The translations under genes were made by a program, and so were the position numbers. The notes under the pieces are model-generated. The model made no database searches, was not told where the DNA came from, and saw only the letters and a program-made list of their open reading frames with translations. Positions 1 through 37,265 of a stretch of 64,000 nt of DNA are shown here, one piece after another; the stretch's first letter is position 1; every line of letters begins with the position of its first letter. Source of the stretch: Scatophagus argus (lineage: Eukaryota > Chordata > Actinopteri > Scatophagidae); NCBI RefSeq assembly GCF_020382885.2, contig NC_058508.1, positions 10,577,917 to 10,641,916 of the forward strand, read 5' to 3'.

Positions 1-1097
1 ATAAAGACCATGTCCTTTAAGGTCTGGCAGACCCTGACCATTGTTGGTGTTCCCAAGGCTGGGATATCAGAGTAAGTACAAATGTAAAATGCTATCTTGA
101 TATTTTGAAATAAGTACATCACAAGAAAGCTAAAATAGTTTGTGTCTTCCTGGATTTTTTTTTGCAATCGGATCTCATTAACAGTATTTTATATCTGTTT
201 TCCAAAAACAAATCCCTTGGTTGTATTTCAGAATGCTATTCCTTTGTTTAGACATTTGGATGTCTTATCCGTTAATGAAATTATAATGAGATCAGGACCG
301 AATATATTCCATAGATGTCTGTATAAGGTACGACATGGTAGCTGACATGACATGTGGATGTTCTGCAGTTTTAAAGTGAACATTGGCCCAGACGAAGAGG
401 ATGTTGCTATGCATATCAACCCTCGTTTTGACGGCTACTCTCCAAACAATGTGGTGGTCTGCAACTCTTACCAGGGAGGCAAATGGGATGAGGAAGTCCG
501 TGGGAGTAGCTTTCCTTTCGAATACGAAAAGGAATTCAAGGTGAGAAACCCTGTGTGTGTGTATTTTCGCCCTGCGTCAACGTCTTCAGCCATACGCTGT
601 GTCTCTGTCTTTCTGTTAGTGACCTCTGGTGGAAAATGTACACCATTATGCCTCTAATACCTTCACTGTTATCATTTGAGAACCGGTTTATAGGCTCACA
701 GAGGTCTGTGAGAACAATATCTGTGCATGAGTCGTTAGACGAGATATTTTCAGGTGTTTGTAATGATAATACACAGCATATAAGAGCTAATTTTAATCAA
801 ATCACCATGTCACATATTACATAGAGCTCAGAAGGTGTGTCAACTTTGATATGTCTGCTTTATCAAAGAACAGAGCAGAAGTTCAATATGTCATATTATT
901 TTCTGCCAATTCTTCACTTTTCTCCCTGTCTCTCGCACACTTCCTGCCAGATGATCATTAAATTCACCCCTGCAGAATTCCAGGTGACTTTACCAGATGG
1001 CTCTAAAATCCACTTCCCCAACCGCTTTGGTGCAGGGAGGTACCCCGTCATCAACTTTAAAGAGGATGTTTGCATCAGTCGAGTTGAAATCAGTTAA
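1..1097 (+). CDS. Galectin copy 1 (proto-type, galectin-2/congerin-like), 5' partial
   Basis: Beta-galactoside-binding lectin with one carbohydrate-recognition domain; the family is leaderless and exported non-classically. Exons seen: exon 2 remainder 1-71 (starts at residue 7), exon 3 369-540 (172 nt), exon 4 951-1097 (147 nt, stop TAA). Exon 1 and nine bases of exon 2 lie outside the window. All introns have GT-AG ends and phases join cleanly (GA|T gives Asp30). Binding residues are complete: His45, Asn47, Arg49 (HINPR), Asn62 (VVCN), Trp69, Glu72, Arg74, each one position beyond human galectin-1. A poly(A) signal ATTAAA lies at 1312-1317. Intron 2 is only 297 nt because a block before the acceptor is deleted, a deletion shared with copy 5. 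It is probably functional; the family call is firm, the exact orthologue is not. Confidence 0.9.
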
Positions 1098-2647
1098 ACC
1101 TCCAAACTTGCAAGGATTGTTGCATTGAAGTCTAGCATAAGGTTACATATAGCCACAGCTTTTAAACAACTGAGCTGTTTAGCAGAGAAGTGCCACATAG
1201 AGGCATTTGATCATTTGTTCTTTAAGCTGCCCTGAAATGCTGTGTTTTCTTGTATTTCCTCCAGACTTTCCTGATTTGTAACTGAGCATAATGCTTGCCT
1301 TTGCAACATGTATTAAAGCATGTTCTTTTATGATAAACATGGACTTCTGTGATTATGTCAACATCTTACACAAACAAACCATCAACTCCACATAAATTCA
1401 CTGTAACAAAACATTCAGACCAACTGACCGTGAACTGGCACATGAAAATTATTCATCATCCATGAGAAACATAAACTGAACCCACATCACACGTCCTCAC
1501 AACAACTAAACTGCTGTTGTCATCTCTGTAAAAGAGTTTGGAAGGCAGACTGGAGCCTTTGTTCTGCATATTTTCTTCGTATGAATTCTTATGACAAGCA
1601 GGTAGTAGGAAGCAGTTTTAAAATATTTGGCAGGACGTCTTCAAGTATTCGTCTGAGTTTCTTTCATAAAAATATTATAATAAGCCATTTTTGCCAGTAG
1701 AGGTCGCCGTTGCTTCATTAATGCAAGTGACTGGAGCCTTGAGGATGGTGACAAAATTTGAGTGACTTTTGATTCTTTTAACCTTAGATTATTGCCAGAT
1801 GTAATTGTTCCTGAGAACCACAACCCACAAATGGTTTGTCATCAAACTGTCAATTAAACAAGCTGAACTGAGTTTCACTGTTCTGCAATTGTAAGCTTGC
1901 TGTGTAACTGTAAGTGTGTGCTTGTCTGTCGTTGAACGGTCAGACATTTTGTTAATCCGCACTTTCCTTCCTTTTGGAGTCCTCTCACACCATATTCACA
2001 GATGTGTTTTCAGTGTTCAACAGTGCAACATGCAACAAATTTACAGCCTGCAACAGATACGAACTCCAGAGCTTAAAGTTGTCAGAATCAGAATCACAAT
2101 TCCTTTATTTATTCTTCTTTCTTACAGACATTGCAATTTGCAATATTCCCAAGCAAGGAAATGAAAATGAAAAGTTTTAATATATTTGGCAGGACGTCTT
2201 CAAGTATTCATCTTAAATGTCTTGAATAAATCAAATATAATAATAAACTTTTGCCAGTAGATGTCACCATTGCTACGTTAATGCAAGTGGCTGGAGACTT
2301 GAAGATAGCATATCACTCACTGGTGAAAAAATTGAAGTGACTTTTGAATCTGTCGGTCAGTTATGATGCCAGTGGTTTCAGTGTTTGTGTCCACATTATC
2401 TGACCTTTTTCTGCCTTCAGATGGAGTCTGGTTAAACCCGTTTTATCCGTTCTTTGACAGTCTTGAAATGGTATCGATGTTCAATAATTAAGGGAATGAA
2501 ATACTGTGATCAAAAGTTGAATCATTCAAAACATGATCTTCCTGTGAAGAAAACAGTGAAACAATATTTGAAAGAAACATCATATTATCTGATGTCTCTG
2601 TTGAGCTCTTGATGAGAATTTGTACCACATGCACAAAATGGCACAAA

Positions 2648-2675
2648 ATTTATGTCTTCATAGGAAGACATAAAT
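2648..2675. repeat. Perfect 12-bp inverted repeat (hairpin), spacer 1
   Basis: ATTTATGTCTTC and its exact complement GAAGACATAAAT, separated by four bases (ATAG). Equivalents lie at 7784-7811 (loop AAAA), 25448-25475 and 38819-38846; the spacer 7 copy has lost most of the left arm. Confidence 0.85.
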
Positions 2676-2875
2676 CTTTGCGGTAGTTTCAACCAGACAC
2701 ATCATTTGTGTTTGTGTGTGTGTGTGACTTAACCAGAGCTCTGAAGCTACCTGGAAGTGTCAAAGGTCCTCTCTCTAGAGGAGGAGAGGGAGCACATCTC
2801 CTTGCCATGATGACCACTGTTTAGAACTTCTCCTCCTTTCCCGTTCTCCACTCGTGTCCGCGTGTGTCTGTGTTT

Positions 2876-3130
2876 GTGTCTTCCTGTTTTTTTGTTGCAT
2901 TCAGGTCACATTAACAGTATTTTATATCTGTTTTCCACAAACAAATCCCAAGGTTGTATTTCAGAATACTATTCCGTTGTTTAGACATTTGGATAATTTC
3001 ATGATCCGTTAATGAAATTATAATGAGATCAGGACTGAGTATATTTTATAGATGTCTGTATAAGGTACAACATGGTAGCTGACATGAGATGTGGTTGTTT
3101 AGCAAGTGAAATCATAAGTCTGAAACCTTG
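2876..3130 (+). pseudogene. Orphan galectin intron 2 fragment (spacer 1)
   Basis: The 255 bp align with intron 2 of the galectin copies (compare about 5126-5380): GCATTCAGG, TTTTATATCTGTTTTCCACA, GACATTTGGAT and TGTCTGTATAAGGTA landmarks occur in the same order and spacing. No exon sequence flanks it, so it is the remnant of a lost galectin gene. It has drifted (TGGATAATTTCATGATCCG), so it is older than the current array units. Confidence 0.75.
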
Positions 3131-4440
3131 TTTTCTGCATATTTTCTTCTGATGAATTCTTAAGACAAGAAGGTCCAAGTAAACAGTTTTAACGTAGTTG
3201 GCAGGACATCTTCATGTCTTGATCTTAATTTCTTACAAAAATAGAAACATAATAAGCCGTATTTGAGGAACAAACCACAAATTGTTTGTCAGCAAACACT
3301 GTTACGTGCAGCACAGTTATAACATGCAACAAACCCAAACTCCAGAGATTAAAGCTGTCACTCTGACACTGTGGCATTATTTACATAGTTAGGGCATGCA
3401 GCACTTTGTGAATACAAAAATGCAAAAAGCACTGTACATAAACTAAGTGACCTAATAGACATCCTCTGATTAAAACTTTCATAATGCAAAACATGGTGAC
3501 TGTGAAGAAGATAGTGATGCAATATTTTAAACTAAAAGTATGATTATCTGATGTGATAGCTTTTGCTGAGCCTAATGTGCTCTACATGGAAATGTGGCAG
3601 CAGTTTCAACCAGACACAATTTGTCTATGTGTGTGTGTGTGTGTGTCTGTGTGGATACTGTGGATAATGTGGATACAGCCAGTTCCTCAGAATATTGCCA
3701 GATGTAGTTGTTCCTGATAAAAACAAAACAGAAATGGTTTATCATCGATCTGTTTGATGACAACAAATCAAGCAGAACTGAGTTTCACGGTTCTGCAATT
3801 ATAAACTACTGAATCGTGTGCTTGTCTATCATTGAACTTCATGTAAAATCAGATGTTTTGTTAATCCGAATTTTCCTTCCTTTTGGAGTCCTCTCATACT
3901 GTATTCACAGATGTGTTTTCAGTGTTCAACAGTGCGACATGCAACAAATTACCGCCTGCAACAAATACGAACTCCAAAGCTTAAAGTTGTCACACTGACA
4001 CTGTGACATTACTTACATAGTTAGGGCATACAGCATTAAAAAAAGCAAAAAGCGCTGCTTTACTGCAAAAAACTGAAAAAAAATAAGCTAAAACAATAAT
4101 GCTCAACATAATAGAAATAACTGAAACACAAATAAGCTCAAGTCACCATGTAGAGCTGTACAATAATGGAGTGAATTAAAGTACTTCCTGTGATCAAAAA
4201 TTGAATTTTGAAGAACATGGTAACTGTGAAGAAGATGGTGAAGCAACATTTTAAACAAAAAATCATTTTATCTGATCGTTCTTTTGAGCTCTTGCTGAAC
4301 ATAATGTTGCAGCAGTTCCAAACAGACACCACTGAAATCTAAAGGCAACGACAGCCAAATCAATTTAATATTGTTGTTTTAAATGTGTTCATAAGAAGCA
4401 ACAAACCCAAACCGCAGAAGTCCTTCACTAAAGAAAGGGT

Positions 4441-4649: not shown

Positions 4650-6231
4650 ATGGTGAAAGTAAGTATAATTTTGACAACAATATTGTGCTCCCGCTGTGCT
4701 TTTTATTCTCTGTATGTTATGACTCAGATGAACGAACAGCATGCGTTTGTATTTTAAAGGTTAAACTGACTGCTAGTTGATATGTACATTCTGTTTGACC
4801 ATGTTTTGTATTTTCTAAGGATGGAGTAAGGTTTGGACAGTTGGCTGAGGCTACTGCTGATGCTGTTTTGTGCCTGAAACTGCAATAATAATCGTATCTA
4901 GTAAAATCTTGTAGTATTTCCAGACAATAACACACTGTATCACCACCACACCCACCACCCGTCTTTATCTGCACAGGGTATGATCATAAAGACCATGTCC
5001 TTTAAGGTCTGGCAGACCCTGACCATTGTTGGTGTCCCCAAGGCTGGGATATCAGAGTAAGTACGAATGTAAAATTCTATCTTGATATTTTGAAATAAGT
5101 ACATCACAAGAAAGCTAAAATAGTTTGTGTCTTCCTGGATTTTTTTTGCATTCAGGTCCCATTAACAGTATTTTATATCTGTTTTCCACAAACAAATCCC
5201 TTGGTTGTATTTCAGAATGCTATGCCTTTGTTTAGACATTTGGATGTCTTATCTGTTAATGAAATTATAATGAGATCAGGACCGAGTATATTCTATAGAT
5301 GTCTGTATAAGGTACGACATGGTAGCTGACATGACATGTGGATGTTTAGCAAGTAAAGTCACAAGGCTGAAACCTTGTTGCCTCCAAGTGTTTTCATTGA
5401 AATTAGGAAAAAGATTCATTTTTCATTTTGCTTGTTTCATTTGCACAGCTAAGGTTGTATGTGTAAAAATCTAATAAATCTTGTTGTTACAATGGCCTGC
5501 AGTTTTAAAGTGAATATTTGCCCAGACGAAGAGGATGTTGCTATGCATATCAACCCTCGTTTTGACGGCTACTCTCCAAACAATGTGGTGGTCTGCAACT
5601 CTTACCAGGGAGGCAAATGGGGTGAGGAAGTCTTTGGGAGTAGCTTTCCTTTCGAATACGAAAAGGAATTCAAGGTGAGAAACCCTGTGTGTGTGTATTT
5701 TCGCCCTGCGTCAACGTCTTCAGCCATACACTGTGTCTCTGTCTTTCTGTTAGTGACCTCTGGTGGAAAATGTACGCCATTATGCCTCTAATACCTTCAC
5801 TGTTATCATTTGAGCACCGGTTTATAGGCTCACAGAGGTCTGTGAGAACAATATCTGTGCATGAGTCGTTAGACGAGATATTTTCAGGTGTTTGTAATGA
5901 TAATACACAGCATATAAGAGCTAATTTTAATCAAATCACCATGTCACATATTACATAGAGCTCAGAAGGTGTGTCAACTTTGATATGTCTGCTTTATCAA
6001 AGAACAGAGTAGAAGTTCAATATGTAATATTATTTTCTGCCAATTCTTCCCTTTTCTCCCTGTCTCTCGCACACTTCCTGCCAGATGATCATTAAATTCA
6101 CCCCTGCAGAATTCCAGGTGACTTTATCAGATGGCTCTAAAATCCACTTCCCCAACCGCTTCGGTGCAGAGAGGTACCCCGTCATCAACTTTAAAGAGGA
6201 TGTTTGCATCAGTCGAGTTGAAATCAGTTAA
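4650..6231 (+). CDS. Galectin copy 2 (proto-type, galectin-2/congerin-like)
   Basis: Complete four-exon gene: exon 1 4650-4658 (MVK), exon 2 4977-5056, exon 3 5503-5674, exon 4 6085-6231; 135 residues with no signal peptide, as in all galectins. The start follows TTGCCAAG and a TATA promoter, and the 9-nt first coding exon matches LGALS1/2 architecture. His45, Asn47, Arg49, Asn62, Trp69 and Glu72 are kept, but the sugar-contacting Arg74 is Phe (codon TTT) and Asp70 is Gly (sequence WGEEVFG). Gly36 is Cys. Exon 4 has GAERYP where copy 1 has GAGRYP. Poly(A) signal ATTAAA at 6448-6453. The Arg74 loss predicts altered or reduced galactoside binding (inference from known galectin structures). Confidence 0.93.
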
Positions 6232-8160: not shown

Positions 8161-8516
8161 GACTTAACCAGAGCTCTGAAGCTACCTGGAAGTGTCGAAG
8201 GTCCTCTCTCTAGAGGAGGAGAAGGAGCACATCTCCTTGGCATGATGACCACCGTTTAGACCTTCTCCTCCTTTCCCGTTCTCCACTCGTCTTATCTCTG
8301 CCTCGCTCACTTGTCTCTTTTTGTCTCACTCCCTCTCAGTCAGGCCTCAGCTTCAACCCATCTCTTTTGCCTGCACTCTTCATTGGAAATAATTCATTTT
8401 AGCAATTCCCCACTTCATTTTAGTTGCAGAAAAGATTAATACTCAGAGCTGTGTTGTCAGTCTACCAACAGCAGTATTGTCTGTGTCTGCATTTGTGTCC
8501 GCGTGTGTCTGTGTTT

Positions 8517-8771
8517 GTGTCCTCCTGTTTTTTTGTTGCATTCAGGTCACATTAACTGTATTTTATATCTGTTTTCCACAAACAAATCCCATGGCTGTAT
8601 TTAGGAATGCTATTCTGTTGTTTAGACATTTGGATAATTTCATGATCCGTTAATGAAATTATAATGAGATCAGGACTGAGTATATTTTATAGATGTCTGT
8701 ATAAGGTACAACATGGCAGCTGACATGAGATGTGGTTGTTTAGCAAGTGAAATCATAAGTCTGAAACCTTG
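8517..8771 (+). pseudogene. Orphan galectin intron 2 fragment (spacer 2)
   Basis: Second copy of the intron relic, with the same ends and shared drift as the one in spacer 1, so both descend from one broken gene amplified with the spacer. Confidence 0.75.
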
Positions 8772-9182
8772 TTTTCTGCATATTTTCTTCTGATGAATTG
8801 ATGAAGACAAGAAGGTCCAAGTAAGCAGTTTTAAACAAACACAAATTGTTTGTCAGCAAACACTGTTACATGCAGCACACTTACAACATGCAACAAAACC
8901 AAACTCCAGAGATTAAAGCTGTCGCTCTGACACTGTGGCATTATTTACATAGTTAGGGCATGCAGCACTTTGTGAATACAAAAATGCAAAAAGCACTGTA
9001 CATAAACTAAGTGACCTGATAGACATACTGTGATTAAAACTTTCATTATGCAAAACATGGTGACTGTGAAGAAGATAGTGATGCAATATTTTAAACTAAA
9101 AGTATGATTATCTGATGTGATAGCTTTTGCTGAGCCTAATGTGCTCTACATGGAAATGTGGCAGCAGTTTCAACCAGACACA

Positions 9183-10198: not shown

Positions 10199-11930
10199 AT
10201 GGTGAAAGCAAGTATAATTTTGACAACAATATTGTGCTCCCGCTGTGCTTTTTATTCTCTGTATGTTATGACTCAGATGAACGAACAGCATGCGTTTATA
10301 TTTTAAAGGTTAAACTGACTGCTAGTTGACATGTACATTCTGTTTGACCATGTTTTGTATTTTCTAAGGATGGAGTAAGGTTTGGACAGTTGGCTGAGGC
10401 TACTGCTGATGCTGTTTTGTGCCTGAAACTGCAATAATAATCGTATCTAGTAAAATCTTGTAGTATTTCCAGACAATAACACACTGTATCACCACCACAC
10501 CCACCACCCGTCTTTATCTGCACAGGATATGATCATAAAGACCATGTCCTTTAACGTCTGGCAGACCCTGACCATTGTTGGTGTCCCCAAGGCTGGGATA
10601 CCAAAGTAAGTACGAGTGTAAAATGCTATCTTGACATTTTGAAATAAGTACATCACAAGAAAGCTAAAATAATTTGTGTCTTCCTGGTTTTTCTTTGCAT
10701 TCAAGTCTCATTAACTGTATTTTATATCTGTTTTCCACAAACAATATCCAATATCAACAATATCCCATGGTTGTATTTCAGAATGCTATGCCTTTGTTTA
10801 GACATTTGGATGTCTTATCCGTTAATGAAATTATAATGAGATCAGGACCGAGGTATATTCTATAGATGTCTGTATAAGGTACGACATGGTAGCTGACATG
10901 ACATGTGGTTGTTCAGCAAGTAAAGTCACAAGGCTGAAACCTTGTTGCCTCCAAGTGTTTTCATTGAAATTAGGAAAAAGATTCATTTTTCATTTTAGTA
11001 TCGATTCTCTTCTTTAATTACAGCACAGAACTTGGCTGAAGCTTCAAGATTACGACAAATGAAACCTTCGTCTTTCTGTGCTTGTTTCATTTGCACAGCT
11101 GAGGTTGTATATGTAAAAATCTAATAAATCTTGTTGTTCAAGAATTTCCCTCCAGGGATTAATAAAGGAATTCTGATTCTGATTGTTACAATGGCCTGCA
11201 GTTTTGCAGTGAACATTGGCCCAGACGAAGAGGATATTGCTTTGCATATCAACCCTCGTTTTGACGGCTACTCTCCAAACAATGTGGTGGTCTGCAACTC
11301 TTGCCGGGGAGGCAACTGGGATGAGGAAGTCTGTGGGAGTAGCTTTCCTTTCGAATATGAAAAGGAGTTCAAGGTGAGAAACCCTGTGTGTGTATATTTT
11401 CGCCCTGCATCAACGTCTTCAGCCATACACTGTGTCTCTGTCTTTCTGTTAGTGACCTCTGGTGGAAAATGTACACCATTATGCCTCTAATACCTTCACT
11501 GTTATCATTTGAGAACCGGTTTATAGGCTCACAGAGGTCTGTGAGAACAATATCTGTGCATGAGTCGTTAGACGAGATATTTTCAGGTGTTTGTAATGAT
11601 AATACACAGCATATAAGAGCTAATTTTAATCAAATCACCATGTCACATATTACATAGAGCTCAGAAGGTGTGTCAACTTTGATATCTCTGCTTTATCAAA
11701 GAACAGAGTAGAAGTTCAATATGTAATATTATTTTCTGCCAATTCTTCCCTTTTCTCCCTGTCTCTCGCACACTTCCTGCCAGATGATCATTAAATTCAC
11801 CCCTGCAGAATTCCAGGTGACTTTACCAGATGGCTCTAAAATCCACTTCCCCAACCGCTTCGGTGCAGGGGGGTACCCCGTCATCAACTTTGTAGGGGAT
11901 ATTTGCATCAGTCGAGTTGAAATCAGTTAA
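10199..11930 (+). CDS. Galectin copy 3 (proto-type), with GC splice donor
   Basis: Exons 10199-10207, 10526-10605, 11202-11373 and 11784-11930 give 135 residues. The exon 1 donor is AAA|GCAAGT, a GC rather than GT donor; the other five bases are consensus, so use as a GC-AG intron is plausible. Intron 2 carries a 45-bp retroelement tail (about 11139-11183) ending roughly 18 nt before the exon 3 acceptor. The protein differs from its neighbours at Asn30 (AA|T), Ala32, Cys64 and Arg65 (CNSCRGG) and Asn68, with Cys74 in place of the binding Arg and a variable GAGGYPVINFVGDI stretch in exon 4. The other binding residues are intact. Poly(A) signal ATTAAA at 12107-12112. The frame is open throughout; splicing efficiency is uncertain. 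Confidence 0.88.
11139..11183 (+). mobile_element. Retroelement 3' tail in copy 3 intron 2
   Basis: GAATTTCCCTCCAGGGATTA followed by AATAAAGGAATTCTGATTCTGA, a non-LTR retrotransposon tail type widespread in fish, interrupts CTTGTTGTT|ACAATGG of the other copies with a TTGTT-like duplication. Severely 5'-truncated. Confidence 0.6.
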
Positions 11931-14891: not shown

Positions 14892-16503
14892 ATGGTGAAA
14901 GTAAGCATAATTTTACAATGTTGTGCTCCTGGTGTGCTTTTTATTCTCTGTATGTTATGACTCAGATGAACGAACAGCATGCGTTTGTATTTTAAAAGTG
15001 ACTGCTAGCTGACATGTACATTCTGTTTGACCATGTTTTGCATTTTCTAAGGATGGAGTAAGGTTTGGACAGTTGGCTGAGGCTACTGCTGATGCTGTTT
15101 TGTGCCTGAAACTGCAATAATAATCGTATCTAGTAAAATCTTGTAGTATTTCCAGACAATAACACACTGTATCACCACCACACCCACCACCCGTCTTTAT
15201 CTGCACAGGATATGATCATAAAGACCATGTCCTTTAAGGTCTGGCAGACCCTGACCATTGTTGGTGTCCCCAAGGCTGGGATATCAGAGTAAGTACGAAT
15301 GTAAAATGCTATCTTGATATTTTGAAATAAGTACATCACAAGAAAGCTAAAATAATTTGTGTCTTCCTGGTTTTTCTTTGCATTCAGGTCTCATTAACAG
15401 TATTTTATATCTGTTTTCCACAAACAAATCCCTTGGTTGTATTTCAGAATGCTATTCCTTTGTTTAGACATTCTGATGTCTTATCTGTTAATGAAATTAA
15501 AATGAGATCAGGACCGAGTATATTCTATAGATGTCTGTATAAGGTACGACATGGTAGCTGACATGACATGTGGATGTTTAGCAAGTAAAGTCACAAGGCT
15601 GAAACCTTGCTGCCTCCAAGTGTTTTCATTGATATTAGGAAAAAGATTCATTTTTCATTTTAGTATCATTTCTACATTTTTACATCGCAGAACCTTTTTG
15701 TGCTTGTTTCATTTGCACAGCTAAGGTTGTATGTGTAAAAATCTAATAAATCTTGTTGTTACAATGGCCTGCAGTTTTAAAGTGAATATTTGCCCAGACG
15801 AAAAGGATATTGCTATGCATATCAACCCTCGTTTTGACGGCTACTCTCCAAACAATGTGGTGGTCTGCAACTCTTACCAGGGAGGCAACTGGGATGAGGA
15901 AGTCCGTGGGAGTAGCTTTCCTTTCGAATACGAAAAGGAGTTCATGGTGAGAAACTCTGTGTGTGTATATTTTCGCCCTGCGTCAACGTCTTCAGCCATA
16001 CACTGTGTCTCTGTCTTTCTGTTAGTGACCTCTGGTGGAAAATGTATGCCATTATGCCTCTAATACCTTCACTGTTATCATTTGAGAACTGGTTTATAGG
16101 CTCACAGAGGTCTGTGAGAACAATATCTGTGCATGAGTCGTTAGACGAGATATTTTCAGGTGTTTGTAATGATAATACACAGCATATAAGAGCTAATTTT
16201 AATTAAATCACCATGTCACATATTACATAGAGCTCAGAAGGTGTGTCAACTTTGATATGTCTGCTTTATCAAAGAACAGAGTAGAAGTTCAATATGTAAT
16301 GTTATTTTCTGCCAATTCTTCCCTTTTCTCCCTGTCTCTCGCACACTTCCTGCCAGATGATCATTAAATTCACCCCTGCAGAGTTCCAGGTGACTTTACC
16401 AGATGGCTCTAAAATCCACTTCCCCAACCGCTTCGGTGCGGGGAGGTACCCGGTCATCAAATTTGAAAAGGATGTTTGCATCAGTCGAGTTGAAATCAGT
16501 TAA
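14892..16503 (+). CDS. Galectin copy 4 (proto-type, galectin-2/congerin-like)
   Basis: Exons 14892-14900, 15209-15288, 15775-15946 and 16357-16503; 135 residues. The complete galectin binding set is present, including Arg74 (NWDEEVRG). Distinguishing changes are Asp4, Cys36, Lys40, Ile42, Asn68, Met87 at the end of exon 3 (EFM instead of EFK), and VIKFEKD in exon 4. Intron 1 lacks several bases found in copies 2 and 3, but both splice sites are consensus. The poly(A) signal ATTAAA at 16650-16655 follows a 3'UTR shortened by a deletion near 16590. Likely a functional galactoside-binding lectin; family call firm. Confidence 0.93.
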
Positions 16504-20250: not shown

Positions 20251-21683
20251 ATGGTGAAAGTAAGTATAATTTTGACAATAATATTGTGCTCCCGTTGTGC
20301 TTTTTATTCTCTGTATGTTATGACTCAGATGAACGAACAGCATGCGTTTGTATTTTAAAGGTGAAACTGACTGCTAGTTGACATGTACATTCTGTTTGAC
20401 CATGTTTTGTATTTTCTAAGGATGGAGTAAGGTTTGGACAGTTGGCTGAGGCTACTGCTGATGCTGTTTTGTGCCTGAAACTGCAATAATAATTGTATCT
20501 AGTAAAATCTTAAAGTATTTCCAGACAATAACACACTGTATCACCACCACACCCACCACCCGTCTTTATCTGCACAGGGTATGATCATAAAGACCATGTC
20601 CTTTAAGGTCTGGCAGACCCTGACCATTGTTGGTGTTCCCAAGGCTGGGATATCAGAGTAAGTACAAATGTAAAATGCTATCTTGATATTTTGAAATAAG
20701 TACATCACAAGAAAGCTAAAATAGTTTGTGTCTTCCTGGATTTTTTTTTGCAATCGGATCTCATTAACAGTATTTTATATCTGTTTTCCAAAAACAAATC
20801 CCTTGGTTGTATTTCAGAATGCTATTCCTTTGTTTAGACATTTGGATGTCTTATCCGTTAATGAAATTATAATGAGATCAGGACCGAATATATTCTATAG
20901 ATTTCTGTATAAGGTAAGACATGGTAGCTGACATGACATGTGGATGTTCTGCAGTTTTAAAGTGAATATTTGCCCAGACGAAGAGGATGTTGCTATGCAT
21001 ATCAACCCTCGTTTTGACGGCTACTCTCCAAACAATGTGGTGGTCTGCAACTCTTACCAGGGAGGCAAATGGGATGAGGAAGTCTGTGGGAGTAGCTTTC
21101 CTTTCGAATATGAAAAGGAGTTCAAGGTGAGAAACCCTGTGTGTGTATATTTTCGCCCTGCGTCAACGTCTTCAGCCATACACTGTGGCTCTGTCTTTCT
21201 GTTAGTGACCTCTGGTGGAAAATGTATGCCATTATGCCTCTAATACCTTCACTGTTGTCATTTGAGAACCGGTTTATAGGCTCACAGAGGTCTGTGAGAA
21301 CAATATCTGTGCATGAGTCGTTAGACGAGATATTTTCAGGTGTTTGTAATGATAATACAAAGCATGAAAGAGCTAATGTTAATTAAATCACCATGTCACA
21401 TATTACATAGAGCTCAGAAGGTGTGTCAACTTTGATATGTCTGCTTTATCAAAGAACAGAGTAGAAGTTCAATATGTCATATTATTTTCTGCCAATTCTT
21501 CCCTTTTCTCCCTGTCTCTCGCACACTTCCTGCCAGATGATCATTAAATTCACCCCTGCAGAATTCCAGGTGACTTTACCAGATGGCTCTAAAATCCACT
21601 TCCCCAACCGCTTCGGTGCAGAGAGGTACCCCGTCATCAACTTTAAAGAGGATGTTTGCATCAGTCGAGTTGAAATCAGTTAA
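20251..21683 (+). CDS. Galectin copy 5 (proto-type, galectin-2/congerin-like)
   Basis: Exons 20251-20259, 20578-20657, 20955-21126 and 21537-21683; 135 residues. His45, Asn47, Arg49, Asn62, Trp69 and Glu72 are kept; Arg74 is Cys (WDEEVCG, codon TGT) and Gly36 is Cys. Exon 4 matches copy 2 at the protein level (GAERYPVINFKED) except for Pro versus Ser at residue 102. Intron 2 (297 nt) carries the same deletion as copy 1, leaving a CTGAC branch-like motif and TTCTGCAG acceptor but little polypyrimidine tract. Poly(A) signal ATTAAA at 21900-21905, only 88 bp before the copy 6 start codon. The features it shares point to different sister copies in different segments, suggesting conversion. Confidence 0.92.
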
Positions 21684-21992
21684 ACCTCCAAACTTGCAAG
21701 GATTGTTGCATTGAAGTCTAGCATAAGGTTACATATAGCCACAGCTTTTAAACAACTGAGCTGTTTAGCAGAGAAGTGCCACATAGAGTCATTTGATCAT
21801 TTGTTCTTTAAGCTGCCTTGAAATTCTGTGTGTTTTCTTGTATTTCCTCCAGACTTTCCTGATTTATAACTGAGCATAATGCTTGCCTTTGCAACATGTA
21901 TTAAAGCATGTTCTTTCATGATAAACATGGACTTCTGTGATTATGTCAACATCTTACACAAACAAACATCAACTCGCTCAACGCTTGCCAAG

Positions 21993-23771
21993 ATGAACAG
22001 AGTGAGTCTAATTTTGACAACAGTATTGTGCTCCTGCTTGTTTTTTATTCTCTCTATGTCTCTAAGATGGACAAGCAGTATGAGCTCGTATGTTAAAAGT
22101 GAGTCTGACATCTGATTGACATGTAAATTCTGTGGATGAGGCAAAGGTTGGAGAGTTTGCCAGGGCTACTGCTGATGCTGTTTTGTGCTTGATGGCTTGA
22201 AGCTGCAATAATAAGCTGCAATAATAATATGTAGTATTTGTAGTATTTTCACACAATAAGGCACTGTATCCACCCCCATCACCTCTTTCCTCACAGGATT
22301 TGATCATAAAAAACATGCCTTTTAAGGCTGAGCAGAAGTTGACCGTTGTTGGAGTGGTCAATTCTGATGCCGCTGGGTAAGTGCTAACATAAAAAACTAT
22401 CTTGATATTTTTGAAATTAGTTCATCACAATAAAACTCAGATAGTTTGCGCCTTCCAGATTCTTTTCGGCGTTCAGGTCACGTTGACAATATTTTCCATC
22501 TGTTTTCAACAAACAAGTGTCATGTTTGTTTCACATAAAGCTATTCTTTTGTTCAGATATTTGGATGTTTCATCGGTTAAAGAAACTTTAATGAGATTAG
22601 GACTGAATATATTATATTGATGTCTGTATAAGGTATGACATGGTAGCTGACATGACGTGTGGTTCTTTAGCAAGTGAAGTCATGAGGCTGAAACCTTGTT
22701 CCCTCCAGCTGTTTTACTGAAATCATGACAAAGGTTCACTTTTCCTTTCAGTGTACTTTCTCCTGTTTAGCTACATCACAGTAGGTGGCTGAGGCTTCCA
22801 GAGCACAACAAATGAAACACATTCTTTGTTTCGTATTCTTCTTTATCAGTTTTTGGTTTTCATTCCATTTTCTGTGTGGAATACCATAACTGGACCCAAC
22901 ACGAGGGCCATTCTTTACATCCATGTATAATTAGTTATAGTCAGTGACTATGTATAAACTTCCCCTGGATAATAGGAGGTCGATGAAGATAAGGTTTGCA
23001 GAGGGAAAGCAACCATGCTACTGCTGAAGCTGTGCATATCAAAATGTAATAAATCTCTCTGTCACATTGTGTTGCAGTTTTGAAGTGAATATCGGCCAAG
23101 ATGAACTGAATTATGCAATTCATATCAACCCTCGTTTTAACACCAAGGGAGATGTTAATAGGGTGATCTGCAACTCTTACCAGAACGGCATCTGGGGTGT
23201 CGAGGTTCGTGGGGGAGGCTTTCCTTTCCAACAGGGAAAGGAGTTCAAGGTGAGTGACCATATGTGTGTGTATTCTTGCCCTGCATTGATGTCTTCAGGC
23301 GTACAATGTGTCCCACGCCTATTACCTTCTGTTAGTGACCTCTGCTGGAAAATGTATGCCACTACACCTCTGGTAACTTCACTGTTATCATTTGAGCACC
23401 ACTTTATGGGCTCTCATAGGTCTGTGAGAACTATATCTGTGCATGTTTCATTAGATAAACTGTTTTAAGGTATTTATAATGATATGATACAGCATGTAAG
23501 AGCTGATTTTTACCTTTGAAATGTCTACTTTATCAAAGAATGGAACAGAAGTTCAAAATATAACATCACTTTCTACATTTTCTTCCTTTCTCTCTCTGTC
23601 TCTTCCACACATGCTACCATCCAGATCATGGTTACATTCACCTGTACAGAGTTCAAGGTGACCCTATCAGATGGCTCTGAAATCCTCTTCCCCAACCGCA
23701 TAGGTGCGGATACATACTCCGTCATCAGCTTTCGTGGGGATGCTTGCCTCAAAAGAGTTGAGGTGGAGTAA
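21993..23771 (+). CDS. Galectin copy 6, divergent paralogue without the array promoter
   Basis: Exons 21993-22001 (MNR), 22297-22376, 23078-23249 and 23625-23771; 135 residues, same exon sizes and phases as the others. It is clearly the oldest lineage: exon 3 differs from copy 1 at about 47 of 172 positions by hand count, roughly 40 of them amino-acid changing. The full binding set is kept: HINPRF, VICNS, Trp69, Glu72, Arg74 (WGVEVRG). Exon 4 opens IMVTFT and ends RVEVE. The start codon follows GCTTGCCAAG as in the other copies, but the TATA/CCAAT block is absent; upstream sequence is the 3' flank of copy 5 up to about 21975. Poly(A) signal ATTAAA at 24086-24091. The frame is intact, so it is coding-competent; transcription is uncertain. 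Confidence 0.87.
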
Positions 23772-25546: not shown

Positions 25547-26120
25547 GTGTTTGCGAGACTCATGAATATTAATACAGTCTAATCTGATGTAACAGCAGGC
25601 AATGTGTGTGAGGATGACTTGAGGAGCGAAGAAGAAAAGAGTTTATGTATGAGAACAGGCTCTAAAGGAGTCGTGTAGGATGACCTTTCCTTTCTTTTGT
25701 TTGGCAAGATTAATTAACGTGTGTCTGTGTGTGTGTGTGTGTGCGTGTGTGTGTGTGTGTGTGTGACTTAACCAGAGCTCTGAAGCTACCTGGAAGTGTC
25801 GAAGGTCCTCTCTGTAGAGGAGGAGAAGGAGCACATCTCCTTGGCATGATGACCACCGTTTAGACCTTCTCCTCCTTTCCCGTTCTCCACTCGTCTTATC
25901 TCTGCCTCACTCACTTGTCTCTTTTTGTCTCACTCCCTCTCAGTCAGGCCTCAGCTTCAACCCATCTCTTTTGCCTGCACTCTTCATTGGAAATAATTCA
26001 TTTTAGCAATTCCCCACTTCATTTTAGTTGCAGAAAAGATTAATACTTAGAGCTGTGTTGTCAGTCTACCAACAGCAGTATTGTCTGTGTCTGCATTTGT
26101 GTCCGCGTGTGTCTGTGTTT

Positions 26121-26375
26121 GTGTCCTCCTGTTTTTTTTGTTGCATTCAGGTCACATTAACAGTATTTTATATCTGTTTTCCACAAACAAATCCCAAGGT
26201 TGTATTTCAGAATGCTATTCCGTTGTTTAGACATTTGGATAATTTCATGATCCGTTAATGAAATTATAATGAGATCAGGACTGAGTATATTTTATAGATG
26301 TCTGTATAAGGTACAACATGGTAGCTGACATGAGATGTGGCTGTTTAGCAAGTGAAATCATAAGTCTGAAACCTT
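26121..26375 (+). pseudogene. Orphan galectin intron 2 fragment (spacer 6)
   Basis: Third copy of the intron 2 relic, joined to TTTTCTGCATATTTTCTTC at its right end like the others. It sits about 260 bp upstream of an orphan exon 1, out of normal gene order, so it cannot be part of a working gene. Confidence 0.75.
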
Positions 26376-26618
26376 GTTTTCTGCATATTTTCTTCTGATG
26401 AATTCTTAAGACAAGAAGGTCCAAGTAAGCAGTTTTAAACAACCTCAAATTGTTTGTCAGCAAACACTGTTACATGCAGCACACTTACAACATGCAACAA
26501 AACCAAACTCCAGAGATTAAAGCTGTCACTCTGACACTGTGGCATTATTTACATAGTTAGGGCATGCAGCACTTTGTGAATACAAAAATGCAAGAACTTT
26601 TCTTCCTTTTGGAGTGTG

Positions 26619-26735
26619 GAGACCACACTTGCCAAGATGAACAGAGTGAGTCTAATTCTGACAACAATATCGTGCTCCTGCTTGTTTTTTATTCTCTCTA
26701 TGTCTCTAAGATGGATGTCTGACATGACAAGCTGG
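26619..26735 (+). pseudogene. Orphan exon 1 and intron 1 start of a copy-6-type galectin (relic A)
   Basis: GCCAAG then ATGAACAGA (26637-26645, MNR) and donor GTGAGT match copy 6 exon 1, and the next 70 bases follow copy 6 intron 1 (CTCCTGCTTGTTTTTTATTC, TCTCTAAGATGGA). Homology then stops and spacer sequence follows; exons 2-4 are absent. A non-functional remnant of the divergent lineage. Confidence 0.8.
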
Positions 26736-28903: not shown

Positions 28904-30579
28904 ATGGTGAAAGTAAGTATAATTTTGACAATAATATTGTGCTCCCGCTGTGCTTTTTATTCTCTGTATGTTATGACTCAGATGAACGAACAGCATGCAT
29001 TTATATTTTAAAAGTGAAACTGACTGCTAGTTGACATGTACATTCTGTTTGACCATGTTTTGTATTTTCTAAGGATGGAGTAAGGTTTGGACAGTTGGCT
29101 GAGGCTACTGGTGATGCTGTTTTGTGCCTGAAACTGCAATAATAATCGTATCTAGTAAAATCTTGTAGTATTTCCAGACAATAACACACTGTATCACCAC
29201 CACACCCACCACCCGTCTTTATCTGCACAGGATATGATCATAAAGACCATGTCCTTCAAGGTCTGGCAGACCCTGACCATTGTTGGTGTCCCCAAGGCTG
29301 GGATACCAAGGTAAGTACGAATGTAAAATGCTATCTTGATATTTTGAAATAAGTACATCACAAGAAAGCTAAAATAATTTGTGTCTTCCTGGTTTCTTTT
29401 TGCATTCAAGTCTCATTAACTGTATTTTATATCTGTTTTCCACAAACAATATCCAATATCAACAATATCCCATGGTTGTATTTCAGAATGCTATGCCTTT
29501 GTTTAGACATTTGGATGCCTTATCTGTTAATGAAATTATAATGAGCTCAGGGCCGAGTATATTCTATAGATGTCTGTATAAGGTACGACATGGTAGCTGA
29601 CATGACATGTGGTTGTTCAGCAAGTAAAGTCACAAGGCTGAAACCTTGTTGCCTCCAAGTGTTTTCATTGAAATTAGGAAAAAGATTCATTTTTTGTTTA
29701 AGTATCGATTCTCTTCTTTAATTACAGCACAGAACTTGGCTGAAATTTCAAGATTACAACTAATGAAACCTTCGCCTTTCTGTGCTTGTTTCATTTGCAC
29801 AGCTAAGGTTGTATGTGTAAAACTCTAATAAATCTTGTTGTTACAATGGCCTGCAGATTTTCAGTGAATATTGGCCCAGACGAAGACGATATTGCTTTGC
29901 ATATCAACCCTCGTTTTGATGGCTGCTCTCGAAAGGTGGTCTGCAACTCTCGCCAGGGAGGCAAATGGGATAAAGAAGTCCATGGGAGTAGCTTTCCTTT
30001 CGAATACGAAAAGGAGTTCAAGGTGAGAAACCCTGTGTGTGTGTATTTTCGCCCTGCGTCAACGTCTTCAGCCATACACTGTGTCTCTGTCTTTCTGTTA
30101 GTGACCTCTGGTGGAAAATGTACGCCATTATGCCTCTAATACCTTCACTGTTATCATTTGAGAACCGGTTTATAGGCTCACAGAGGTCTGTGAGAACAAT
30201 ATCTGTGCATGAGTCATTAGACGAGATATTTTCAGGTGTTTGTAATGATAATACAAAGCATGAAAGAGCTAATGTTAATTAAATCACCATGTCACATATT
30301 ACATAGAGCTCAGAAGGTGTGTGAACTTTGATATGTCTGCTTTATCAAAGAACAGAGCAGAAGTTCAATATGTAATGTTATTTTCTGCCAATTCTTCCCT
30401 TTTCTCCCTGTCTCTCGCACACTTCCTGCCAGATGATCATTAAATTCACCCCTGCAGAGTTCCAGGTGACTTTACCAGATGGCTCTAAAATCCAATTACC
30501 CAACCGCTTCGATGCAGGGAGGTACTCCGTCATCAAATTTGTAGAGGATGTTTGCATCAGTCGAGTTGAAATCAGTTAA
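28904..30579 (+). CDS. Galectin copy 7 (proto-type), two codons shorter
   Basis: Exons 28904-28912, 29231-29310, 29857-30022 and 30433-30579. Exon 3 is 166 nt, 6 nt shorter than in every other copy, removing two residues from the loop between HINPRF and VVCN (FDGCSRKVVCN), so the protein is 133 residues. The residue at the position of Arg74 is His (WDKEVHG, codon CAT); the other binding residues remain. The exon 2/3 junction codon is Arg (AG|A), followed by FSVNIG. Exon 4 has KIQLPNRFDAGRYSVIKFVED, departing from HFPNRFGA at conserved positions. Poly(A) signal ATTAAA at 30794-30799. The loop shortening and His suggest changed ligand preference (inference). Confidence 0.92.
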
Positions 30580-32165: not shown

Positions 32166-32177
32166 GTGTATGTGTGT

Positions 32178-32226: not shown

Positions 32227-32227
<1 letters not shown>

Positions 32228-32804
32228 TGTGTTTGCGAGACTCGTGAACATTAATACAGTCTAATCTGATGTAACAGCAGGCAATGTGTGTGAGGATGAC
32301 TTGAGGAGCGAAGAAGAAAAGAGTTTATGTGTGAGAACAGGCTCTAAAGGAGTCGTGTAGGATGACCTTTCCTTTCTTTTGTTTGGCAAGATTAATTAAC
32401 GTGTGTCTGTGTCTGTGTGTGTGTGTGTGTCTGTGCATGTGTGTGTGTGACTTAACCAGAGCTCTGAAGCTACCTGGAAGTGTCGAAGGTCCTCTCTGTA
32501 GAGGAGGAGAAGGAGCACATCTCCTTGGCATGATGACCACCGTTTAGACCTTCTCCTCCTTTCCCGTTCTCCACTCGTCTTATCTCTGCCTCACTCACTT
32601 GTCTCTTTTTGTCTCACTCCCTCTCAGTCAGGCCTCAGCTTCAACCCATCTCTTTTGCCTGCACTCTTCATTGGAAATAATTCATTTTAGCAATTCCCCA
32701 CTTCATTTTAGTTGCAGAAAAGATTAATACTCAGAGCTGTGTTGTCAGTCTACCAACAGCAGTATTGTCTGTGTCTGCATTTGTGTCCGCGTGTGTCTGT
32801 GTTT

Positions 32805-33060
32805 GTGTCCTCCTGTTTTTTTTGTTGCATTCAGGTCACATTAACAGTATTTTATATCTGTTTTCCACAAACAAATCCCAAGGTTGTATTTCAGAATGCT
32901 ATTCTGTTGTTTAGACATTTGGATAATTTCATGATCCGTTAATGAAATTATAATGAGATCAGGACTGAGTATATTTTATAGATGTCTGTATAAGGTACAA
33001 CATGGTAGCTGACATGAGATGTGGCTGTTTAGCAAGTGAAATCATAAGTCTGAAACCTTG
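32805..33060 (+). pseudogene. Orphan galectin intron 2 fragment (spacer 7)
   Basis: Fourth copy, within the 6.7-kb duplicate block and almost identical to the spacer 6 copy. Confidence 0.75.
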
Positions 33061-33302
33061 TTTTCTGCATATTTTCTTCTGATGAATTCTTAAGACAAGA
33101 AGGTCCAAGTAAGCAGTTTTAAACAACCTCAAATTGTTTGTCAGCAAACACTGTTACATGCAGCACACTTACAACATGCAACAAAACCAAACTCCAGAGA
33201 TTAAAGCTGTCACTCTGACACTGTGGCATTATTTACATAGTTAGGGCATGCAGCACTTTGTGAATACAAAAATGCAAGAACTTTTCTTCCTTTTGGAGTG
33301 TG

Positions 33303-33419
33303 GAGACCACGCTTGCCAAGATGAACAGAGTGAGTCTAATTCTGACAACAATATCGTGCTCCTGCTTGTTTTTTATTCTCTCTATGTCTCTAAGATGGAT
33401 GTCTGACATGACAAGCTGG
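33303..33419 (+). pseudogene. Orphan exon 1 and intron 1 start of a copy-6-type galectin (relic B)
   Basis: ATGAACAGA at 33321-33329 with GTGAGT donor, same truncation as relic A. It keeps GACCACGCTTGCC where relic A has GACCACACTTGCC. Produced by the 6.7-kb block duplication. Confidence 0.8.
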
Positions 33420-33456
33420 TCCTAGTAAGCAGTTTTAACAGATTTAGCAGGAAGTA

Positions 33457-33597: not shown

Positions 33598-33816
33598 TGA
33601 CTGTGAAGAAGATAGAGAAGAAATATGTTAAAACAAAAACATATTATCTGATCTTGGTGAGTCTATTGTCCTCACATACTGAAATGTGCCAGAACTTTTA
33701 ATCAGACACAATTTGTGTGTGTGTGTGTGTATGTATGACGATGATTTGAAAAAAAATGTATGTGTGAGATGTATGATGACCTTTCCTTTCTTTCTTTCAT
33801 TCATCAAGATTCATTA

Positions 33817-33855
<39 letters not shown>

Positions 33856-33969
33856 GGTACTGTTGATAATGTGGATACTGCCAGTTCCTTAGAACAGTGC
33901 CAGATGTAGTTGTTCCTGAGAAGAAGGAACCAGAAATGCTTTGTCAACAGATTTGTCAATAGATTATCA

Positions 33970-34874
33970 GGTTATACATGTCATTCTGGGGTTATCACTT
34001 CATATGGCTTCAAATTTATACCTTCAGGTATGAAATATCTAGGCATTCAACTAAATGTAAATCTGGATGAAATAATGCTCTCGAATATGGAACCACTCCT
34101 CCAGAAAATAAAAATGAACTTGGATAAATGGGGAAAGTTGAAGCTCACACTGTGGGGAAAAATTAATGTCATTAAAATGGTGGTTGCACCACAATTCAAC
34201 TATGTTTCCATGTTGTTATCAGTCAATATAGTGCCACAAATTTTTAAACATTATGATAGAATTATCAAAGACTTTTTATGGGATAAAATGAGACCAAGGA
34301 TTAATATTAAAAAGATGTGGTCACCAAAGGAAATAGAAGGTATGGGTGTACCTATTGTAAGATTATATAATCTGTCATTTGAAATGTCTAGGTTGAGAAA
34401 ACATTGGAAGGGTCAGGAGCTGAGTTGGATCAAAACTGAAAGGGACCTAACTAGTCCGTTTGAACCTCTGGATGTCCCCTCACATGGTGTAACAACTTCT
34501 GGACATAATTATTTTTCAAACCCAGTGCTTTCTTATTCTAAAGCAGTTTGGAGAGAAATTCATAAGATCTATAGTATTTCACACTTAAGACAACCTTATG
34601 CCTCTCTGTGGCACAACCCAGCTATACGTATTGGGAAAAAATCTGTCTTTTGGAATCAATGGCTTGTAAAAGGGATACACAAACTAAGTGATCTGTGTGT
34701 GGATGGAGTGTTCTTGTCGTCTGCTGGTGCTATGCAAAAATATAATTTGGAATATGAAGATAATTTTTGGAAATATTTACAAATAAGGGACTGTATCACA
34801 AAGGGTAAATTTAATCACAACAAGAATACACTGCTTGACTGCAACAAGTTGAAAAGTAAGCAACAACAATAATT
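33970..34874 (+). mobile_element. L1-type LINE ORF2 fragment (copy d), open frame
   Basis: Near-identical to copy c, stop at 34870-34872, with a few substitutions (for example LDEIMLS versus LVEIMLS, VPQIF versus VPQLF). Part of the duplicated 6.7-kb block. Retention of an open frame reflects recent duplication and is not by itself evidence of host function. Confidence 0.78.
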
Positions 34875-35360
34875 TTCACCATGATAAAAACAACTGAAAA
34901 TAACTAAATAATACATATGGATGTACAATAATGGAGTGAATAGAAGTACTTCCAGTAATCAAATTGAATTTTGAAAAAAATGGTGACTGTGAAGTAGATA
35001 GAGAAGAAATATGTTAAAACAAAAACATATTATCTGATTGTTCTTTTGAGCTCTTGGTGAGTCTAATGTGCTCACATACTGAAATGTGCCAGAACTTTCA
35101 ATCAGACACAATTTGTGTGTGTGTGTGTGTGTATGTATGAGCATTGTGCATGATGATGATTTGAAGAGAGAAAAACAGTTTATGTGTGGGATGTATGATG
35201 ACCTTTCCTTTCTTTCTTTCATTCATCAAGATTCATTAATGTGTTCACAGATGTGTTTTCAGTGTTCAACTAACACTCAAAGCAACAGCCAAATCAATTT
35301 GATAATCTTGTTTTAAATGCATTTTTAACAAGCGACAAACCCAAACCGCAGAAGTCCTTC

Positions 35361-35583
35361 ACTAAAGAAAGGGTGGATCATCACAATAACTTCACACTTG
35401 GACTGACTGTTTGATGGTTATCATTGGCCTGATTGTCTTCGTTGATTGAAATGTCACCCAAGTTGAAGCCTTCACCCACACTGCACACACACTGTATATA
35501 TTCTCCTGTCAGGGTGCAGTGAGGAAAGGTCCTGCAGCTTGTCACTTCTTCTCAGCTGTACCTGACTGACTACGCTTGCCAAG
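35361..35583 (+). promoter_or_regulatory. Promoter and 5'UTR of galectin copy 8
   Basis: Nearly identical to the copy 7 promoter: upstream CCAAT box lost, second inverted CCAAT kept, CACCC-type box, TATATAT at 35495-35501. It fits the adjacent 6.7-kb duplication of which both are part. Confidence 0.67.
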
Positions 35584-37265
35584 ATGGTGAAAGTAAGTAT
35601 AATTTTGACAATAATATTGTGCTCCCGCTGTGCTTTTTATTCTCTGTATGTTATGACTCAGATGAACGAACAGCATGCGTTTGTATTTTAAATGTGAAAC
35701 TGACTGCTAGTTGACATGTACATTCTGTTTGACCATGTTTTGTATTTTCTAAGGATGGAGTAAGGTTTGGACAGTTGGCTGAGGCTACTGCTGATGCTGT
35801 TTTGTGCCTGAAACTGCAATAATAATCGTATCTAGTAAAATCTTGTAGTATTTCCAGACAATAACACACTGTATCACCACCACACCCACCACCCGTCTTT
35901 ATCTGCACAGGATATGATCATAAAGACCATGTCCTTCAAGGTCTGGCAGACCCTGACCATTGTTGGTGTCCCCAAGGCTGGGATAAAAGAGTAAGTATGA
36001 ATGTAAAATGCTATCTTGACATTTTGAAACAAGTACATCACAAGAAAGCTAAAATAGTTTGTGTCTTCCTGGTTTTTCTTTGCATTCAAGTCTCATTAAC
36101 AGTATTTTATATCTGTTTTCCACAAACAATATCCAATATCAACAATATCCCATGGTTGTATTTCAGAATGCTATGCCTTTGTTTAGACATTTGGATGTCT
36201 TATCCGTTAATGAAATTATAATGAGATCAGGACCGAGTATATTCTATAGATGTCTGTATAAGGTACGACATGGTAGCTGACATGACATGTGGATGTTTAG
36301 CAAGTAAAGTCACAAGGCTGAAACCTTGTTGCCTCCAAGTGTTTTCATTGAAATTAGGAAAAAGATTCATTTTTTGTTTAAGTATCGATTCTCTTCTTTA
36401 ATTACAGCACAGAACTTGGCTGAAGCTTCAAGATTATGACGAATGAAACCTTCGCCTTTCTGTGCTTGTTTCATTTGCACAGCTAAGGTTGTATGTGTAA
36501 AAATCTAATAAATCTTGTTGTTACAATGGCCTGCAGATTTTCAGTGAACATTGGCCCAGACGAAGAGGATATTGCTTTGCATATCAATCCCCGCTTTAAC
36601 ATCCACTACGATGAGAATAAGGTGGTCTGCAACACTCGCCAGGAAGGCAAATGGAAGGAGGAATACCGTCAAGGATCCTTTCCTTTCGAATACGAAAAGG
36701 AGTTCAAGGTGAGAAACCCTGTGTGTGTGTATTTTCGCCCTGCGTCAACGTCTTCAGCCATACACTGTGTCTCTGTCTTTCTGTTAGTGACCTCTGGTGG
36801 AAAATGTACGCCATTATGCCTCTAATACCTTCACTGTTATCATTTGAGAACCGGTTTATAGGCTCACAGAGGTCTGTGAGAACAATATCTGTGCATGAGT
36901 CGTTAGACGAGATATTTTCAGGTGTTTGTAATGATAATACAAAGCATAAAAGAGCTAATTTTAATTAAATCACCATGTCACATATTACATAGAGCTCAGA
37001 AGGTGTGTCAACTTTGATATGTCTGCTTTATCAAAGAACAGAGTAGAAGTTCAATATGTAATGTTATTTTCTGCCAATTCTTCCCTTTTCTCCCTGTCTC
37101 TCGCACACTTCCTGCCAGATGATCATTAAATTCACCCCTGCAGAGTTCCAGGTGACTTTATCAGATGGCTCTAAATTCCAATTCCCCAACCGCTTCGGTG
37201 CACACAGATACCCCGTCATCAGGATTGCAGGGGATGTTCGCATCAGTCGAGTTGAAATCAGTTAA
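35584..37265 (+). CDS. Galectin copy 8 (proto-type), strongly altered binding-loop block
   Basis: Exons 35584-35592, 35911-35990, 36537-36708 and 37119-37265; 135 residues. The introns, exon ends and promoter are almost those of copy 7, yet the centre of exon 3 (about 36590-36690) is very different: FNIHYDENKVVCNTRQEGKW followed by KEEYRQGSFPF. His45, Asn47, Arg49, Asn62, Trp69, Glu72 and Arg74 are all present, so it should bind galactosides. Exon 4 also varies (KFQFPNRFGAHRYPVIRIAGDVRIS), including Arg for the otherwise invariant Cys128. The junction codon is Glu (GA|A). Poly(A) signal ATTAAA at 37492-37497. It is the last gene of the array. Confidence 0.93.

Follow-up and report, generated by a model that had tools for sequence, protein, structure and literature searches.

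Accelerated evolution of fish galectins is already known from the congerins. Congerins I and II, the skin-mucus galectins of the conger eel, are encoded by duplicated genes with a ratio of nonsynonymous to synonymous substitution rates (dN/dS) of 2.6 and show altered sugar specificity (PMC3269628; papers are cited here by PMC number). Here we analyse a 64,000-nucleotide stretch of the Scatophagus argus genome (hereafter, the window; contig NC_058508.1, positions 10,577,917 to 10,641,916 of the forward strand), in which positions 1-37265 hold eight predicted genes of proto-type galectins, all on the + strand and arranged head to tail. With a probability that we put at roughly 0.7, this is a young tandem array in which diversifying selection acts on the residues round a conserved galactose pocket.

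Like the congerins, the predicted products are proto-type fish galectins, and an array protein matches a reconstructed ancestral congerin in a phmmer search (E = 1e-21). However, two congerin genes have been described, in contrast to eight in one array here, where selection is resolved to subsites A-B and E of the sugar-binding site and the equivalent of galectin-1 Arg73 is lost in four of the eight copies. Furthermore, congerins are cysteine-free (PMC2843614), whereas each of the eight copies encodes at least one cysteine, and we do not class the array genes as congerins. Arg73 is one of the seven residues listed for the carbohydrate recognition domain (CRD), namely, H44, N46, R48, N61, W68, E71 and R73, and striped bass Msgal1-L1, unlike the array, keeps all seven (PMC12116657). 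The zebrafish Drgal1 isoforms resemble the array genes in having four exons and include the closest solved relative by sequence, Drgal1-L2 (PDB 6e20; PMC12116657), which was the best match in a PDB search (E = 5e-43, gapless over 131 residues) and came top again in a second search with copy 7 as the query. In contrast to the array with its losses of Arg73, Drgal1 consists of three genes on two chromosomes, and all key N-acetyllactosamine (LacNAc)-contact residues are reported to be kept (PMC13163536).

Outside fish, sauropsid galectin-1B likewise arose by duplication of galectin-1 and shows a signal of positive selection in a branch-site test, but this is a single duplicate with a chi-square of 4.4, and the site involved, Cys8, lies outside the core ligand-binding site (PMC4224342), unlike the many sites round the sugar site in the array. 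A lineage-specific cluster of placental galectin genes is known from primate chromosome 19 (PMC6593412). It differs from the array in galectin lineage and setting. The products of that cluster reportedly have altered binding sites; to our knowledge, which we did not extend by a search, no contrast between exons and introns of the kind described below has been reported for it. Within the literature on galectin duplication, clusters and selection (titles and abstract openings, with most subscription journals outside the scope), we found no array of this kind, and the available portions of two texts on galectin evolution (PMC10343441, PMC4224342) do not mention such arrays.

Exon and intron divergence and site-model tests

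Seven of the copies (1-5, 7 and 8, numbered along the window) are young, with mean pairwise differences (21 pairs) of 0.022 for intron 3 and 0.043 for intron 2. Copy 6 differs from the others by about 0.20-0.24 in the introns and, judging from this divergence, is a paralogue of much greater age. Divergence between the seven close copies is 0.109 in exon 3 and 0.062 in exon 4, against 0.022 in the intron between them. Variable columns make up 52 of 172 in exon 3, 24 of 147 in exon 4 and 22 of 410 in intron 3 (Fisher test against intron 3: odds ratio 7.6 and p = 7e-15 for exon 3, odds ratio 3.4 and p = 1.6e-4 for exon 4), and the excess holds against introns 2 and 3 pooled (p = 9e-14 and 0.0014). 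When copy 8 is left out, the counts become 24/172, 17/147 and 22/410 (p = 0.001 and 0.02). Variation in exon 2 is no different from that in the introns. The contrast between exons and introns makes chance an unlikely cause.

In the seven close copies, 42 of the 132 codons vary in amino acid. The earlier note on this DNA had placed the differences mainly in three segments, which correspond to codons 48-55, 66-74 and 111-122 when the three exon 1 residues are left out of the numbering. By hand count, these segments, 29 of the 132 codons, contain 21 of the 42 variable codons, about 2.3 times the even expectation; the concentration is thus real, but "mainly" is slightly generous, and an additional hotspot with well-supported selected sites, codons 26-29 at the exon 2/3 junction, had been missed. 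In tree-free counts, the proportion of nonsynonymous differences (pN, 0.023) is below that of synonymous differences (pS, 0.074) outside the hot segments, which implies that most of the protein is constrained. The whole coding region yields pN of 0.079 and pS of 0.080, and pN in the hot segments is 0.20, a value that is not independent evidence because the segments were picked from the data.

Site models (M1a against M2a) were fitted with purpose-written GY94 code on three trees: a star, a noncoding tree and an exon tree. For the seven close copies, twice the difference in log-likelihood (2ΔlnL) was 66.4, 35.5 and 26.1 on these trees, respectively; without copy 8, the values were 41.4, 22.4 and 12.0, and all eight copies on the star gave 72.1. 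Exon 4 alone yielded 20.2. In neutral simulations that involved no exchange, a single replicate of 18 exceeded 5.99, with a maximum of 6.0. Reshuffling of copies between four blocks brought 2 of 19 and 9 of 33 replicates past this value, with maxima of 10.5 and 15.3 and with 4 of the 33 at 12 or above; the main statistics exceed all 52 reshuffled neutral replicates. The site-by-site dN/dS check proposed in the earlier note therefore rejects neutrality, and the variation is not an even spread with dN/dS at or below 1. From the coding sequences, the array appears to be under diversifying selection, with dN exceeding dS at a class of sites, robustly to the choice of tree and to recombination in all but the weakest variant of the test.

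Selected sites and the sugar-binding site

Codon numbers plus 2 give galectin-1 numbers. A crystal study of galectin-1 assigns Ser29, Val31, Asp123 and Gly124 to subsite A-B and Gly53, Asp54 and Arg73 to subsite E (PMC9082524), and PMC5855614 and PMC4945863 concur on Ser29, Val31, Asp54 and Arg73. All seven of these published extended-site residues vary in the array (p = 2e-4 given 42 variable codons of 132). The predicted genes, with their residues at extended-site positions 29/31/54/73 in galectin-1 numbering, and the relics between them are as follows.

1-1097, + strand: galectin copy 1; exons 2-4 at 1-71 (truncated at the window edge), 369-540, 951-1097; D/K/P/R
4650-6231, + strand: galectin copy 2; exons 4650-4658, 4977-5056, 5503-5674, 6085-6231; D/K/P/F
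10199-11930, + strand: galectin copy 3; exons 10199-10207 (GC donor), 10526-10605, 11202-11373, 11784-11930; N/A/P/C
14892-16503, + strand: galectin copy 4; exons 14892-14900, 15209-15288, 15775-15946, 16357-16503; D/K/P/R
20251-21683, + strand: galectin copy 5; exons 20251-20259, 20578-20657, 20955-21126, 21537-21683; D/K/P/C
21993-23771, + strand: galectin copy 6, divergent and apparently older; exons 21993-22001, 22297-22376, 23078-23249, 23625-23771; G/E/D/R
28904-30579, + strand: galectin copy 7; exons 28904-28912, 29231-29310, 29857-30022, 30433-30579; R/S/R/H (two codons of exon 3 are deleted in the loop after HINPRF, and the call at residue 54 depends on gap placement)
35584-37265, + strand: galectin copy 8; exons 35584-35592, 35911-35990, 36537-36708 (with a divergent tract, codons 43-75), 37119-37265; E/S/D/R
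2872-3132 (+ strand), 8513-8773, 26117-26378 and 32801-33062: sequence relics of galectin intron 2
26625-26715 (+ strand) and 33309-33399: sequence relics of a copy-6-type exon 1 with the start of intron 1

Nine selected sites were called on the noncoding tree (codons 26, 27, 29, 52, 71, 113, 119, 121 and 122), and six of these are extended-site residues (hypergeometric p = 9e-8). The overlap is 5 of 7 sites on the exon tree and 5 of 10 on the star; omission of copy 8 leaves 5 of 7 and 2 of 2. Tree-free counts for the seven extended-site codons give pN of 0.42 and pS of 0.10, or 0.34 and 0.01 when copy 8 is omitted. The variable residues had been described in the earlier note as lying in loops near the carbohydrate site; they do include the extended-site contacts, but, by what we take to be the strand positions of galectin-1, they lie partly on strands rather than in loops alone. 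Selected codons 26, 113 and 119 fall outside the published contact list, as could happen if the pressure came not from glycans but from new protein partners, or from pathogen proteins that attach to the lectin surface or block it. Given the strong overlap of the selected sites with sugar-site contacts (6/9), we regard such an origin as rather improbable.

The six core galactose contacts, H44, N46, R48, N61, W68 and E71, are invariant in all eight copies; the chance of such invariance is about 1 in 10 for the seven close copies and 0.6% for the eight. Arg73 is kept in copies 1, 4, 6 and 8 and is replaced in copies 2, 3, 5 and 7 by Phe, Cys, Cys and His, respectively, and Asp54 is lost in six of the eight copies. 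Losses of this kind, the relics that attest to the death of copies within the array and the lack of the shared promoter region at copy 6 (see below) would all fit relaxed constraint, whereby redundant extra copies drift and the surroundings of the binding site decay. This explanation seems to us quite unlikely: every coding frame within the window is open, the six core contacts are untouched, pN is lower than pS outside the hot segments, and the pN of the contact codons, 0.34-0.42, is about 8 to 19 times the intron divergence of 0.022-0.044, an excess that drift would not yield.

Structure and history of the array

The exon models were derived from splice signals and reading frame, and all are predictions. 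Exon 1 consists of 9 nucleotides (nt), exon 2 of 80, exon 3 of 172 (166 in copy 7) and exon 4 of 147 including the stop codon. The claim of eight galectin copies with a kept scaffold and kept intron phases is borne out, with eight + strand genes in which the phase is always 2 at the end of exon 2 and 0 at the end of exon 3, and with exons 2-4 open in every copy. The exon 1 proposed for seven copies reads M-V-K, or M-N-R in copy 6. Copy 1 is cut by the window edge, which removes exon 1 and the opening 9 nt of exon 2, so the array may extend leftwards; the last gene, copy 8, ends with its exon 4 at 37265. A scan of both strands of the window for the H-I-N-P-R motif found eight sites, all on the + strand, and repeat analysis detected a 300-bp stretch in eight copies, 2.1 to 6.8 kb apart.

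The Pfam PF00337 profile, run against copies 1 and 6 only, matched both above the cut-off (E = 3e-26 and 3e-27, respectively). A single CRD of 132 residues follows the 3-residue exon 1, four exons are predicted in seven of the eight copies, and residues 1-112 align to residues 3-114 of bovine and human galectin-1, with 20 residues left in each. By their single CRD, four exons and co-linearity with galectin-1, the predicted genes qualify as proto-type and galectin-1-like. Newly arisen cysteines are encoded at codons 33 (copies 2, 4 and 5), 50 (copy 7), 61 (copy 3) and 71 (copies 3 and 5). The exon 1 splice donor of copy 3 (10199-10209) is GC; in the six other copies where it is seen, the donor is GT.

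The intergenic relics, four of intron 2 and two of the copy-6-type exon 1, indicate that copies have been both born and lost. A deletion in intron 2 is common to copies 1 and 5, which are 99% identical over that intron, and copies 7 and 8 are 98.4% identical across 3 kb ending at exon 2. Identity this high is what allelic duplicates or assembly errors would produce, but the uneven spacing of the copies (2.1-6.8 kb) and the differences of 1 to 6.4% in introns 2 and 3 among the 21 close pairs make it very unlikely that some of the copies are artefacts of this sort. Of the 1176 informative column pairs, 606 cannot be fitted to a single tree, and which copy is nearest switches between regions; from these alignments, the copies are mosaic, with heavy inter-copy recombination.

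The DNA 5' of the start of copy 6, to within 17 nt, is of the type found in the 3' flanks of the other genes (97% identical to copy 1 and 99% to copy 2), and the promoter region common to copies 2-5, 7 and 8, in which a TATA-like stretch was read by eye, is absent. This absence suggests that copy 6 may be unexpressed or else arise by read-through from copy 5. The copy 5 stop lies about 310 nt from the copy 6 start, and nearly all of the sequence between them (21684-22001) is of the 3'-flank type. In copy 8, the exon 3 block of codons 43-75 (within 36537-36708) differs from copy 4 at 32 of 99 nt, compared with 10 of 126 before the block and 17 of 171 after it; four codon changes inside the block and five outside are synonymous only. 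The block, in which silent and replacement changes both occur, is probably an imported tract. Within the window, only copy 6 was checked as its donor and was rejected, with 34 of 99 nt differing from copy 8 and 29 of 99 from copy 4.

Several points weigh against diversifying selection as the explanation of the exon variation. Because of the heavy recombination, the nominal chi-square p-values overstate the significance. The weakest variant (six copies on the exon tree, 12.0) falls within the range of the reshuffled null and leaves two sites, and the simulations mimic only the seven full-length copies on the noncoding tree, so that for other variants they are a mere guide. Without copy 8, the comparison with both introns weakens to p = 0.009 for exon 3 and 0.09 for exon 4. 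The contact list was chosen after the variation had been seen and comes from a single paper. When the eleven codons touched by possible CpG transitions were dropped (2ΔlnL 32.9, or 34.9 with the copy 8 tract also masked), and when exons 2 and 3 were fitted alone (20.1, or 21.2 with the tract masked), the neutral class collapsed and nearly all variable codons were called, so that only the test statistic is used from these fits. Finally, pS in the exons (0.056-0.080) is greater than the intron divergence (0.022-0.044), so that the exon excess may in part consist of older variation, retained during homogenisation of the introns.

Gene conversion that homogenises introns but spares exons is, on these comparisons, a real part of the story. 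Taken further, it would mean that gene conversion homogenised introns and flanks while selection protected old differences in the exons, so that the variation was kept and not newly made. The excess of exon pS over intron divergence, the heavy mosaicism and the imported look of the copy 8 block are all in line with this possibility. However, the signal is no weaker when the copy 8 tract is masked (2ΔlnL 40.9), copy 6 is not the donor of the tract, and, without copy 8, the contact codons combine pS of 0.01 with pN of 0.34, a pattern not expected of old tracts. As the principal source of the variation, kept old differences thus seem possible but doubtful.

Hypermutability of CpG dinucleotides could also produce changes, above all at Arg73, where CGT gives rise to TGT or CAT: the codons at this position are CGT, TGT, CAT and TTT, and the eleven codons mentioned above are touched by possible CpG transitions. 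Mutation of this type may account for part of the Arg73 pattern, but the statistic remains at 32.9 without those codons, and the CpG list does not include sites 26, 27, 29, 113, 119, 121 and 122; we give it only a slight chance as the explanation. When tested singly, neither relaxed constraint, nor CpG mutation, nor the copy 8 tract sufficed as the only cause.

Predicted specificities and the rest of the window

Under diversifying selection round a conserved galactose pocket, the reading that we prefer, duplication, loss and inter-copy exchange would supply variants, and selection would diversify the rim, that is, the equivalents of Ser29, Val31, Asp123 and Gly124 (subsite A-B) and of Gly53, Asp54 and Arg73 (subsite E), with the scaffold and the six contacts fixed. 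Each product would either keep galactose as an anchor or have lost that ability, and its own rim would read an adjoining sugar or substituent. The likely driver would be defence at mucosal surfaces, as proposed for congerins. By analogy with congerins (PMC2843614, PMC3269628) and with the zebrafish and striped bass galectins (PMC13163536, PMC12116657), a role in skin-mucus defence can be envisaged for the array.

Mutants of galectin-3 suggest how the copies might differ. When the Asp54 equivalent is replaced (E165A), the preference moves from type 2 lactosamine to type 1, replacement of the Arg73 equivalent (R186A) abolishes binding to both LacNAc types, and the Arg48-Asp54-Glu71-Arg73 network determines lactosamine preference (PMC4422656). 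By this analogy, copies 6 and 8, in which the network is complete, should have the ordinary type-2 preference, and copies 1 and 4, with Pro in place of Asp54, should show a shifted one. Copies 2, 3, 5 and 7, which lack Arg73, should bind lactosamine weakly or not at all, or else bind a different ligand.

The earlier note had also suggested that the array acts as a repertoire of lectins with different glycan preferences. The match of most of the selected sites to galectin-1 extended-site contacts points in that direction; the loss of Arg73 in half of the copies speaks against a simple repertoire of galactoside readers, and the missing promoter region of copy 6 likewise counts against a simple repertoire. 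A bolder proposal is that of a germline "anchor and rim" lectin locus, with a frozen galactose anchor and hypervariable subsites A-B and E, in which exchange mixes rims and loops into new specificities and the copies without Arg73 have left beta-galactosides for other, perhaps microbial, ligands; we consider it speculative and, on balance, unlikely. In any case, the array offers a natural series of close lectins whose differences cluster at the residues believed to govern fine specificity. Such a series would permit direct tests of glycan reading by the two subsites, A-B and E, and could help to show whether arrays of animal lectins evolve as germline repertoires for recognition. The array further indicates that Arg73, regarded as essential, can be lost while the gene frames remain open.

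The window is animal genomic DNA with a G+C content of about 39%. An Rfam scan of the window at gathering scores gave no match. Ten open frames between 37 and 63 kb, chosen by eye from 207 pieces of at least 50 amino acids, contained no Pfam family above the cut-off, and three of the ten had sub-cut-off matches with E values of 0.015-0.06. Across 37300-64000, no gene was recognised, and many simple repeats were seen by eye in the translations.

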